From assembly GCA_016215105.1 (NCBI GenBank), contig JACRLJ010000009.1, positions 78,756 through 142,755 on the forward strand: a stretch of 64,000 bases of DNA. The letters run 5' to 3'. This DNA is from Candidatus Hydrogenedentota bacterium (lineage in GTDB: Bacteria; Hydrogenedentota; Hydrogenedentia; Hydrogenedentales; SLHB01). Positions 7,317-51,588 of the stretch are shown here, one piece after another. The stretch's first letter is position 1, and every line of letters begins with the position of its first letter. Position numbers and translations under genes: made by a program. Under the pieces are notes generated by a model that ran no database searches, was not told the DNA's origin, and saw only the letters and a program-made list of their open reading frames with translations.

Positions 7317-7708
7317 CCTTGCGCTGTTGGGCGCCTTCCGTGGCGTCCATTCCTGTTCTGGCCTATTCTTCGGCAGGACGGAGATGGAACTTGAGTTGGA
7401 CTTGGACGGTTCGGCACAGGGGGACCGTTCGGCGAACCGTCCCTACCCTGGGCGGCCCGGCGACACGTTCCCAGCCCTGGTGATCCGTAAACGGTTCCTG
7501 GCAACCAGTTGAACCGGCTTGGGCGGTGCGGTAGTGTAACCACAAGGGCGGCGCGCCGGTCTCAGGAAGTCCTTAGCTTCTTTGCCCGCAACTTCCACGT
7601 TGTTCGCGTAGATGTTGCGGACAAAGAAGTCATACCAATGACTCTGTCGTTGCGGCCGGGCCGCCTTAGACGTTCTATTCAACACACCATGTTGGGGAGG
7701 TATTGGGT

Positions 7709-9337
7709 ATGGCCATGCGTTTGCGTCTGCTGCTATTCGCGGTCGTGTTCGGTTTGCTTCTTGGGCCGTTGGCGTCGTCCGAGACGGTCATGGTCCCGAT
7801 GAAGGACGGCGTCAAGTTGGCCACGGACGTCACGTTGCCGGCCAGCGGCGGTCCGGCGTTTCCGGTAGTGCTGGTGCGCACCGTGTATAACAAAGCGCAG
7901 GGGGCGGGGGTAGCGCCCATCTTTAACGCGGCCGGGATGGCGCTCGTGATTCAGGACACGCGCGGCCGGTTCGCAAGCGAAGGCAAGGACATGATCTTCG
8001 CCGATGATGGCTGGGGCGAACACCAGGACGGCGCCGACACGGTTGCGTGGGTGAAGCAGCAGCCGTGGTGCAACGGCAAGATCGGTACGTGGGGCATGTC
8101 GGCATTGGGCATCACACAGATTCAGATGGCGCCTGCCACGAAAGACGTTGCCGCGCAAGCCATCATCGTGGCGTCGTCGAAGTTCTACGGCCAGACCGCG
8201 TACCAGGGCGGTGTGTTCATGAAGTCGCTGGCGGAAACCTGGATTCACGGTCAGAAGAGCGATTGGGTGATTGACATCTGGAAGAGTCATCCGGCGTATG
8301 ACGCCTACTGGAAAGGATTCAACGCGGAAGAACAGGCGCCGAAGATCACCGCGCCCGCGATTCACATCGGGGGATGGTTCGACATCTTCCAGCAGGGCAC
8401 GATCAACAACTTCGTAACGCGGCAGCATCAGAGCGGCCAAGGCGCCAAGGGGAATCAGAAACTCGTCATCGGGCCATGGCCGCACGGGCCGAGCAAGAGA
8501 CTCGGTGATCTCGACCTGAAGGACAACTTTAACAAGTTTGACATGAACATGGCGTCAGTGCGGTTTCTACAGTACTGGCTCAAGGGTGAAGATAACGGCA
8601 TCATGAAAGAACCTGCGGTGAATTACTACACGCTGGGCGATGTGGTCACCGAGGGCGCTCCCGGCAACGAATGGCGCACCGCCGACGATTGGCCGCCGTT
8701 CCCCACGAAGGCAACATCGTACTACCTGGTCGAAGGCGGCAAACTTGGCAACAAGCCCGCGGACACGAAAGGCAGCGCGACGTACTCGTACGATCCCAAG
8801 GACCCGTGTCCGACCAAGGGCGGCCAGAACTTGACCATTCCCGCCGGGACGTTTGACCAGCGCGAGGTCAGCGGCCGTCCCGACGTGCTTCGCTTCGCCA
8901 CAGAGCCACTCGCCGCGCCGGTCGAGATCACCGGGCACGTGGATGTGACGCTGTACGTTTCGACGGACGCTCCGGACACCGACTTCACCGCGAAGCTGGT
9001 GGACATTTATCCGGACGGCAAGGAGATTCTTATGCTGGACAACGTGCGCCGTCTGAAGTTCCACAAGGGATTTGACAAACCCGAGCCGGTAAAGCCGGGC
9101 GAGATCACCAAGCTCGACATAGACCTGTGGTCGATCAGTTTGATAGTGAACAAGGGTCACCGCATCGGCGTGCAGGTATCGAGCAGCAACTACCCGCGTT
9201 TCGAGAAGAATCCGAACACCGGTGACGATTTTCCGAAGGACGACAAGCTGCGCGTCGCGAAGAACACGGTGTATATGGACAAAGAACACCCGAGCGCGAT
9301 CATTCTGCCGGTGCGCGCCGAGGCGGCAGGCAAGTAG
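7709..9337 (+). CDS. CocE/NonD family (S15-like) alpha/beta hydrolase, secreted
   Basis: Signal MRLRLLLFAVVFGLLLGPLAS; VPMKDGVKLATDVTLP; GKIGTWGMSALGITQ; C-terminal X-Pro-peptidase-like beta domain; RBS ggggagg before ATG 7709. Confidence 0.88.
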   Translation: MAMRLRLLLFAVVFGLLLGPLASSETVMVPMKDGVKLATDVTLPASGGPAFPVVLVRTVYNKAQGAGVAPIFNAAGMALVIQDTRGRFASEGKDMIFADDGWGEHQDGADTVAWVKQQPWCNGKIGTWGMSALGITQIQMAPATKDVAAQAIIVASSKFYGQTAYQGGVFMKSLAETWIHGQKSDWVIDIWKSHPAYDAYWKGFNAEEQAPKITAPAIHIGGWFDIFQQGTINNFVTRQHQSGQGAKGNQKLVIGPWPHGPSKRLGDLDLKDNFNKFDMNMASVRFLQYWLKGEDNGIMKEPAVNYYTLGDVVTEGAPGNEWRTADDWPPFPTKATSYYLVEGGKLGNKPADTKGSATYSYDPKDPCPTKGGQNLTIPAGTFDQREVSGRPDVLRFATEPLAAPVEITGHVDVTLYVSTDAPDTDFTAKLVDIYPDGKEILMLDNVRRLKFHKGFDKPEPVKPGEITKLDIDLWSISLIVNKGHRIGVQVSSSNYPRFEKNPNTGDDFPKDDKLRVAKNTVYMDKEHPSAIILPVRAEAAGK

Positions 9338-9543
9338 CGTGGCATGGCGGCAACCAAGGCCGCTTGGCCGCGAAAGAACGCAGAGAACGCAAGGGAATTA
9401 CGAATTACGAATGCAGACGGACGCAGACGTATCTAGAAAACGAAATTTTGACTAGACGACTTGCGGTCATCAGGGCACGGACTTCTGCAAAGTGAAGCAA
9501 GACGTTGATAGTTAGTAGTGCAAAGGAGACAGCGAGCGGCTTC

Positions 9544-49858: not shown

Positions 49859-49994
49859 CGCGGCCGAATACGCTAGGCCTTATGCCACGGAAAACACACC
49901 GCGGCATAGCCGCAACCAAAGTGAATAGGCGTTTCCGAAAGCCGTAATCTGATTGTGTGAACAAGAGGCAACCAGCACGACGGAGGGAAACGCC

Positions 49995-50090
49995 ATGAAA
50001 GAGTTTATGACAAAGTACGCGGGCAAAATCAAGGGTGTTATGTCGGGGGGATGGAGATGTACCTGCAGCATGTCAGCGTACTCTTGAAGG
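49995..50090 (+). pseudogene. displaced N-terminus of the 50051-51526 ORF (MKEFMTKYAGKIKGVMSG...), out of frame
   Basis: ATG at 49995 preceded by ggaggg; reads MKEFMTKYAGKIKGVMSG then shifts relative to the main ORF at a run of six G (50045-50050). Confidence 0.5.
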
Positions 50091-51526
50091 ACTTCGGGCG
50101 CCACGTGGAAGAGGTGTCGTCGCAGGTGAAAGCGGCGGCATTGTCGTGGGCGAGCGAGTCGGGTCGTCCGATTCAGTACTTGGCGTCGTCGCAGGTGAGT
50201 AAGGAGGACATGGCGCGCGCCATCGCGCAACGCGATGGCGTGTCGGAGGGGCCGGTGTGCGTGCTGACGTGTGTGGAGCCGTGTAGGACTTTCGATATTT
50301 GTCGAAACCGTGAAACAAAGCAACTGGACTTGGTGGTCCGTCCGCGCAAATGCCTGTTTGTGTATCATTACTTTATCCACCCGGAACTGGGCTGGGGCTA
50401 TGTTCGGCTTCAAACGTGGTTTCCATTTCACGTGCAGGTGGGGCTTAATGGGCGGACCTGGTTAGCTCGCCAGATGGACACCGCCGGATTGGGATATCTG
50501 AAGTCGGACAACTGCTTTCCCTGGGTGGCGGATTTCTCCCGGGCTCAGGCGCTACTGGACGAGCAGTTGACGGTGAACTGGTCAGGCCTGTTGGACGGAT
50601 TTGCGGACCAGATTTTTCCGGTGCGGGAGTCAATCTTTGCCCGTCACCGAGTCTCGTACTACTGGAGCGTGTTTCAAAGTGAATGGGCTACCGATGTGGT
50701 ATTCGCAGACCGTGATACGCTGCGCGTCTTGTATCCTCGCTGGGTGCATCACGGTCTGACAACGTTGCACAGCGTAGACACCATGCGCTTCTTGGGACGC
50801 ACAGTGTCCGTTCAGAACGGGCGAGTACCGGTGCGTTTTGCGGGCGAGGTGGTCAGCGATGTGAAACGGCGAGAGGAAGGGGTGCGTCTTAAGCACCGCA
50901 TGGATAAGAACAGTGTGAAGCTTTATGACAAGGCATACACTTCGCGCGGCAGCGTGGTACGCGTTGAGACGACTCTGAATGACTCCTCGCCTTTCCGGGT
51001 GTTCCGAGCCAAAGAAGGCGCACCCGAAGAACAAAAGACTTGGCAGACCTTGCGCGCTGGAGTGGCCGACCTGGCCCGGCGAGCCCAGGTTTCCCAGGCT
51101 GCCAACGCGCGCTACTTGGGCGCCTTGACTCAAGTGGACGACGGGACGGCTTTGGGGCGCCTGCTTGAGCGTGTGCAACGGCCTATCACCCGGCACGGTC
51201 GCCGCACGCGCGCCCTACATCCGTTCGAAAACCCAGACGCTGCTCTGCTCAATGCCGTGAGCCACGGACAGTTTCTCCTTAATGGCTTCCGTAACCACGA
51301 CCTGCAGACCCTGTTGTTTTTGGGCGTTCCCCGCGATGCCGCCGAAGCTCGCCACCGCTCAGCCCAAGTCTCGCGAGCCCTTGCTCGCCTGCGCGCTCAT
51401 GGCTTAATCAAGAAGGTCCCCCATGAGTACCGCTATCATCTTACCGCTTCGGGAAGAACGCTTGCCGCAGCAATCTCCGCCGCCAAAGCTGCCTCCGTAA
51501 GTGCTTTAGTCGACAAGGCCGCATGA
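50051..51526 (+). CDS. uncharacterised family protein with Rep-initiator-like and C-terminal winged-helix-like motifs; putative mobile-element protein
   Basis: RLQTWFPFHVQVGLNGRTWLARQMD, YYWSVFQSEWATDVVF, GVRLKHRMDKNSVKLYDK...VVRVETTLND; C-term SRALARLRAHGLIKKVPHEYRYHLTASG. Confidence 0.7.
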   Translation: MEMYLQHVSVLLKDFGRHVEEVSSQVKAAALSWASESGRPIQYLASSQVSKEDMARAIAQRDGVSEGPVCVLTCVEPCRTFDICRNRETKQLDLVVRPRKCLFVYHYFIHPELGWGYVRLQTWFPFHVQVGLNGRTWLARQMDTAGLGYLKSDNCFPWVADFSRAQALLDEQLTVNWSGLLDGFADQIFPVRESIFARHRVSYYWSVFQSEWATDVVFADRDTLRVLYPRWVHHGLTTLHSVDTMRFLGRTVSVQNGRVPVRFAGEVVSDVKRREEGVRLKHRMDKNSVKLYDKAYTSRGSVVRVETTLNDSSPFRVFRAKEGAPEEQKTWQTLRAGVADLARRAQVSQAANARYLGALTQVDDGTALGRLLERVQRPITRHGRRTRALHPFENPDAALLNAVSHGQFLLNGFRNHDLQTLLFLGVPRDAAEARHRSAQVSRALARLRAHGLIKKVPHEYRYHLTASGRTLAAAISAAKAASVSALVDKAA

Positions 51527-51588
51527 TAAATCCTGCGTACCGTAACAAGAAATCAAACGTTAGTAGTGCATAGTGCAGAGAGTTGACT

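Follow-up and report, generated by a model that had tools for sequence, protein, structure and literature searches.

A hairpin-ended, single-gene insertion element in a Hydrogenedentota genome, with a predicted tyrosine nuclease that resembles Rep_trans initiators rather than HUH enzymes

The window analyzed here, a 64,000-nucleotide stretch of a draft Candidatus Hydrogenedentota genome (contig JACRLJ010000009.1), contains a 1.7-kb insertion-sequence-like element whose sole gene appears to be a decayed copy. The element family has defined ends, occurs in several copies, inserts without target duplication, shares a set of conserved residues, and is spread over many phyla. We regard it as likely that the family comprises single-strand or rolling-circle transposons that are moved by a tyrosine nuclease with the Rep_trans/TBP fold, not by an HUH enzyme, and that have REP-like/MITE derivatives. 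The features of the window, all on the plus strand, are as follows.

49896..51567, plus strand: whole element, 1,672 bp, from comparison of homologous elements; left border common to contigs C76 and C19, right border common to C95
49896..49917, plus strand: left end, ACACC + hairpin GCGGC-ATA-GCCGC (49901-49913) + AACC (49914-49917)
49995..50048, plus strand: what is left of the gene's true start, MKEFMTKYAGKIKGVMSG, in a different frame from the remainder, ~52 nt missing
50051..51526, plus strand: 491-aa ORF, the transposase without its first ~36 aa (strand 1, D20-R21 of complete members)
50675..50695, plus strand: codons of Q209-x-E211-x-A213-x-D215, counterpart of the Rep_trans strand-6 R-x-D-x-A-x-D
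50918..50968, plus strand: codons of K290-x-Y292-x-K294 and R304-x-E306, corresponding to Rep_trans strands 10 and 11
51338..51490, plus strand: C-terminal winged helix, MarR/ArsR-like (weak Pfam wHTH matches, residues ~433-477; helices and strands in the model)
51559..51567, plus strand: right end, GTTAGTAGT, 33 nt 3' of the stop codon, the same in contig C95
9334..9519, plus strand: candidate decayed short derivative, ~186 bp, read directly; imperfect hairpin, then AACCAAG ... GATAGTTAGTAGT, with GCA across the border

Three other contigs of the window's genome terminate within further copies: C76 matches window positions 49894-50034 at 100%, C19 matches 49893-49958 at 100%, and C95 matches 51449-51573 at 98%. 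The left flanks of the copies in this genome differ, and agreement starts at the element edge. Beside the window element, the target bases are a C at 49895 on the left and GCA from 51568 on the right.

An earlier reading of the window, made from its letters alone (the sequence-only reading), had placed a 491-aa ORF with several motif-like blocks at 49995-51526. The ORF and the quoted blocks are present, but the coordinates were wrong: the ORF occupies 50051-51526 (+), and translation begun at 49995 runs out of frame with it. The ATG at 49995 is the family's true start and matches the start ATG of complete members, whose N-terminal pattern is M..F......G.LxGFDRxVFRG...GM. From this ATG the window reads MKEFMTKYAGKIKGVMSG, followed by GMEMYLQH in a different frame; the complete member at locus L052 begins MHEFIAKHQNKIAGILSGFDRLVFRGTLRSLSFVDGM at the corresponding place. 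The distance from the ATG to the GMEM codon is 56 nt in the window versus 108 nt in L052, so that ~52 nt are missing, the window gene is frameshifted, and the invariant FDR...G strand (strand 1) is gone. In the alignment, D20, R21, and G26, found in all 48 other sequences, are absent from the window copy. Without strand 1, which bears the invariant, presumed catalytic Asp, the window copy is probably inactive; as the source is a draft genome, an assembly error may lie at the frameshift point. Y292 is the predicted nucleophile of the window copy. Two points had been absent from the sequence-only reading, namely the frameshift with loss of the presumed catalytic Asp and the hairpin end that links the element to REP-like repeats.

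The hairpin is placed 5 nt from the left end of the element. By a strict rule (perfect stem of at least 5, then AACC), such a hairpin lies upstream of the gene at 40 of 74 loci, versus 0.84 expected from shuffles, and the rule detects no left end at the other 34. The arrangement in 36 non-redundant elements is (C)NYAGC, a stem and its complement separated by a loop of 2-4 nt, AACC, and mostly AAA; the stem variants GCGGC, GCGGGC, GCGGCC, GTGGGC, GTGGCT, and GCGGAC were picked for complementarity and are therefore no independent proof of covariation. The right end across relatives, TAGTAGT, stands ~40 nt 3' of the stop codon and is found within 25-60 nt of it at 15 of 71 loci (0.11 expected), while a broader right-end set covers 27 loci (2.5 expected). 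In a Desulfo-type clade (L108/L116-L122), the left end carries CYAAC/CYAAG and the right end CTAA instead; elements of the L094 family may terminate in TAGTGT, not TAGT; and a right border at GTAGTG was not seen in the L114/L115 pair from Bacilli. No terminal inverted repeats were seen, and the hairpin was found at the left end only.

Many elements sit inside interspersed repeats of the host, so that the target sequence can be read. When the flanks of 15 elements and the window copy are joined, the left base is C in all of them and the right side is mostly RC; insertion thus occurs mostly between C and RC (C/RC), without target duplication. The joined flanks match uninterrupted repeats without gaps (36 nt at 97% for L055, 28 nt at 96% for L052, 29 nt at 97% for L056), and for short units in the window's genome the outcome is the same, with two examples matching at 90% over 52 nt and over 48 nt. 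No true empty site was found in a sister strain, and the empty sites are deduced from the repeats. The intergenic, purine-rich repeats that often house elements, e.g., ACCACAGAGGCACAGAGGACACAGAG, AACGCAGAGACGCAGAG, and CCACAGATTTCACAGATGG, are similar across host genomes of several phyla; examples are L052 2772-2793 and 4510-4531, and others lie at L055, L056, L005, and L021-L050.

Relatives are present in 10 of 100 related genomes. A single-sequence search of a genome contig collection gave no match; an alignment-based search of the same collection gave 116 loci from at least 14 phyla, 80 of which were retained, and nearly all copies come from draft MAGs. Phyla are intermixed in the tree, where the window copy falls among Acidobacteriota copies (98/83 and 100/88 support), in contrast to the nearest relatives of its genome, which are Hydrogenedentota. 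In two acidobacterial MAGs, the elements L094 and L095 are 99.8% identical over 1.8 kb in different surroundings; one of these genomes has additional incomplete copies, of which three lie at contig ends, and at the left ends seen the flanks differ and the first base is the same. As in an insertion sequence, a discrete unit with its own transposase gene is repeated in different places. The sequence-only reading had suspected a mobile-element protein in multiple copies across phyla, and this has held up: C76, C19, and C95 end in copies, relatives occur in at least 14 phyla with a patchy distribution, the ends are defined, and uninterrupted targets are readable. The copy count and flank comparison that it proposed located the ends at 49896 and 51567 and revealed no target duplication, and the picture is not one of single-copy genes in conserved synteny.

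The loci encode one protein family, for which Pfam and NCBIfam name no transposase. These libraries and PHROGs returned only weak winged-helix or chance matches, and PDB sequences gave no match. An alignment of 49 sequences identifies the blocks QTWFPF, SEWATD, and KLYDK...VRVETT, together with the winged helix, as conserved parts of the family. In L052 numbering, D20 lies on strand 1, followed by Q245-x-E247-x-A249-x-D251 (the strand 6 counterpart), K325-x-Y327-x-K329 (strand 10), and R339-x-E341 (strand 11); E247, D251, K325, Y327, R339, and E341 are invariant in 49 of 49 sequences. AlphaFold2, run on this alignment, modeled the whole protein with a pLDDT of 90.8 and pTM of 0.79 and the catalytic domain with 94.7 and 0.90. 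In the prediction, beta-alpha-beta4-alpha occurs twice before the winged helix, a TBP-like order of elements. Foldseek searches with the full model and the catalytic domain found no significant PDB match and no Rep_trans entry in the 50 best; the best matches were TBP and Bet v 1-type helix-grip proteins, at low TM-score. In a viral structure library, one match reaches 3e-4, and the list includes, at 0.019, a Dishui lake phycodnavirus TBP (A0A2N9QVX7) that has been reported as a Rep-Arvir match (PMC13107129). Nothing here points to a clearly non-DNA enzyme fold.

Two unrelated versions of replication initiator are reported, HUH and Rep_trans/TBP-fold (PMC13107129). In Rep_trans, R140-x-D142-x-A144-x-D146 is on strand 6, R189-x-Y191-x-K193 on strand 10, and R212-x-E214 on strand 11 of a sheet that, in the structures, comprises two five-strand modules with TBP topology (PMC4797284); the metal ligands are D46, D142, and E214 (PMC13107129). 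D20, E247, D251, K325, Y327, R339, and E341 of the family are on the strands that carry Rep_trans D46, D142, D146, R189, Y191, R212, and E214, and RstA of phiSMA9 (PF02486 at 5.5e-19) has the same motif series. The Rep-like core suspected from the letters can accordingly be specified: KLYDK...VVRVETT corresponds to R-x-Y-x-K / R-x-E by order, spacing, and predicted strand, and SEWATD to R-x-D-x-A-x-D.

Rep_trans proteins (PF02486; RepDE/RepSTK1, inovirus RstA) share with the family R/Q-x-D/E-x-A-x-D, K/R-x-Y-x-K, R-x-E, and an acidic residue on strand 1, and the order of the predicted elements agrees with their two-module TBP-like sheet, although no PDB match was significant. The element protein differs in its C-terminal winged helix and in being encoded by a transposon rather than a replicon. 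Rep-Arvir (DUF7845, PF25227; initiators of archaeal viruses and plasmids) is similar in that a MarR-like winged helix follows its TBP-like catalytic domain, that a hairpin is the recognized site, and that its metal ligands and tyrosine form a comparable pattern (PMC13107129); it differs in serving archaeal replicons, not insertion sequences, and in lacking sequence or profile similarity. PF02486 is not among the 25 families listed for the 49 members at E<=1 and was not found in the genome; the PF25227 profile did not match the family, although it matched the positive control SNJ2; and profile comparisons with Rep_trans and Rep-Arvir were negative. These two are themselves said to be mutually unrecognizable by sequence (PMC13107129). 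Because profile-level similarity is not detectable, we do not file the family under either, although its protein probably works like them. Propionibacterium phage B5 Orf9, tried as a Rep_trans yardstick, proved to be an HUH Rep_1 protein.

The ends of the element recur in short dispersed units. In the window's genome, AGCGCGGC-N2-4-GCCGCAACC has 18 exact matches and GTGAGTAGTACAG has 12, versus 0 for the reversed-pattern control in each case; the genome of L074 has 11 hairpins versus 0 in the control. Units of 127-274 bp in the window's genome carry both ends, and no coding remnant was found in the candidate at 9334-9519. A 116-bp repeat at three places in the same genome (L026, L028, and L029 1492-1607; two pairings at 99% identity) opens with the same hairpin-AACC and is a probable non-autonomous element of another subfamily. 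The short units resemble repeats of the REP/MITE type that relatives of the element would have moved. The dispersed hairpin-AACC repeats in these two genomes would also be expected if the host had domesticated the gene, in the manner of RAYTs, to maintain REP-like repeats, and the gene were itself immobile, a reading that we consider unlikely given full elements that are 99.8% identical between different flanks, a tree in which phyla are mixed, and the presence of the gene in only 10 of 100 relatives.

That the protein is the initiator of an integrated plasmid or phage, not a transposase, is quite improbable. The family has the active-site motif of Rep_trans initiators, and relatives occur on seven plasmid records; however, the gene stands alone in a unit whose precise ends are ~1.7 kb apart, without further replicon genes, it has several chromosomal copies without target duplication, and relatives number one in 2.9 million viral contigs and none in 50,697 phage records queried with the homologue L011. 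We give still less credence to a cut-and-paste transposase of known chemistry (DDE-like or HUH) that has diverged too far for the libraries. The negative searches allow for extreme divergence, and transposases with an HTH are common among insertion sequences, but no HxH pair is conserved in more than 10% of sequences, Y1_Tnp is absent from the listed Pfam matches, the fold predicted for the protein is of the TBP type and not RNase H or RRM, and neither target duplication nor terminal inverted repeats were seen. A transcription factor, as suggested by the ArsR/MarR-type winged helix at the C-terminus and by a RefSeq name, is hardly credible, because the ~400-residue catalytic domain and its invariant polar residues would then have no explanation, and because the gene is part of a multi-copy element. 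The RefSeq name, ArsR family transcriptional regulator, belongs to a plasmid-borne family member (L136 2890-4404, Paraburkholderia pOLGA1, WP_063501089.1) and is misleading, owing to the C-terminal winged helix.

Single-strand or rolling-circle transposition is suggested by the combination of a predicted initiator-like tyrosine nuclease, insertion without duplication, and ends that are asymmetric, one of them with a hairpin 5 nt inside it. In such a scheme, the intact protein would be a tyrosine nuclease whose two-module TBP-like catalytic domain and C-terminal winged helix recognize the subterminal hairpin-AACC in single-stranded or extruded form. With a metal held by D20, E247, and E341, Tyr327 (L052 numbering) would nick the element border and form a 5'-phosphotyrosine link; TAGTAGT would be the site of a second strand transfer, through which a single strand is released or copied, and this strand would then be joined into another C/RC target without duplication. 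Short relics that retain both ends would be moved in trans and accumulate as REP-like/MITE repeats. We infer this trans-mobilization, the nuclease chemistry, the moving strand, and the choice between copying and excision from the features described above.

Known single-strand and rolling-circle transposons (IS200/IS605, RAYT, IS91, and Helitrons) use HUH nucleases. IS200/IS605 and REP/RAYT (TnpAREP) resemble the present family in a subterminal hairpin beside a conserved tetranucleotide, the absence of target duplication, and dispersed short palindromic relatives; unlike it, they rely on HUH Y1 nucleases with an RRM-type fold, and their tetranucleotide is GTAG/CGTC, whereas here it is AACC with a hairpin at one end only. 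IS91 and Helitrons share asymmetric ends, insertion without target duplication, and, on the complementary strand, a hairpin 5 nt from the 3' end, but they have HUH Y2 nucleases, a helicase in Helitrons, and a different target, in contrast to the single small protein of another predicted fold found here. In its way of life, the element represents a variant on the IS200/IS605-IS91 theme, whereas its transposase may be a new class of enzyme. Of the two initiator versions, only HUH is known to have given rise to transposases, and no Rep_trans-type transposase was found in the literature, with subscription papers and ISfinder outside the search.

On balance, we lean towards a separate transposase class, the first based on a Rep_trans/TBP-fold tyrosine nuclease, independent of HUH, occurring in 14 or more bacterial phyla, and giving rise to REP-like repeats of a second, non-RAYT type. 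If so, both versions of replication initiator, HUH and Rep_trans/TBP-fold, gave rise to transposases; hairpin repeats in understudied soil and sediment phyla would have a source; and a small enzyme with simple ends would be amenable to in vitro testing.

A few further observations concern hairpins and near-identical copies. Two GCGGC-nnn-GCCGCAA hairpins on the minus strand of the window, at 7643 and 12792, are followed by AGTCA(T/A)TG...ACTTCTTT and resemble L038 1522; they are perhaps a further dispersed repeat, and no clear family emerged when a second repeat type was suspected there. Loci L069 2378-4332 and L070 175-2129, from Verrucomicrobia and Deltaproteobacteria MAGs, are 99.95% identical with different left flanks, which reflects either a recent transfer or a binning error. 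At the left ends, the base that follows AACC is paired with the identity of the fifth base of the stem (GCGGG with AACCC and one AACCG, GCGGC with AACCA, and GCGGA with AACCT), which possibly reflects a recognition rule, or possibly just shared descent.
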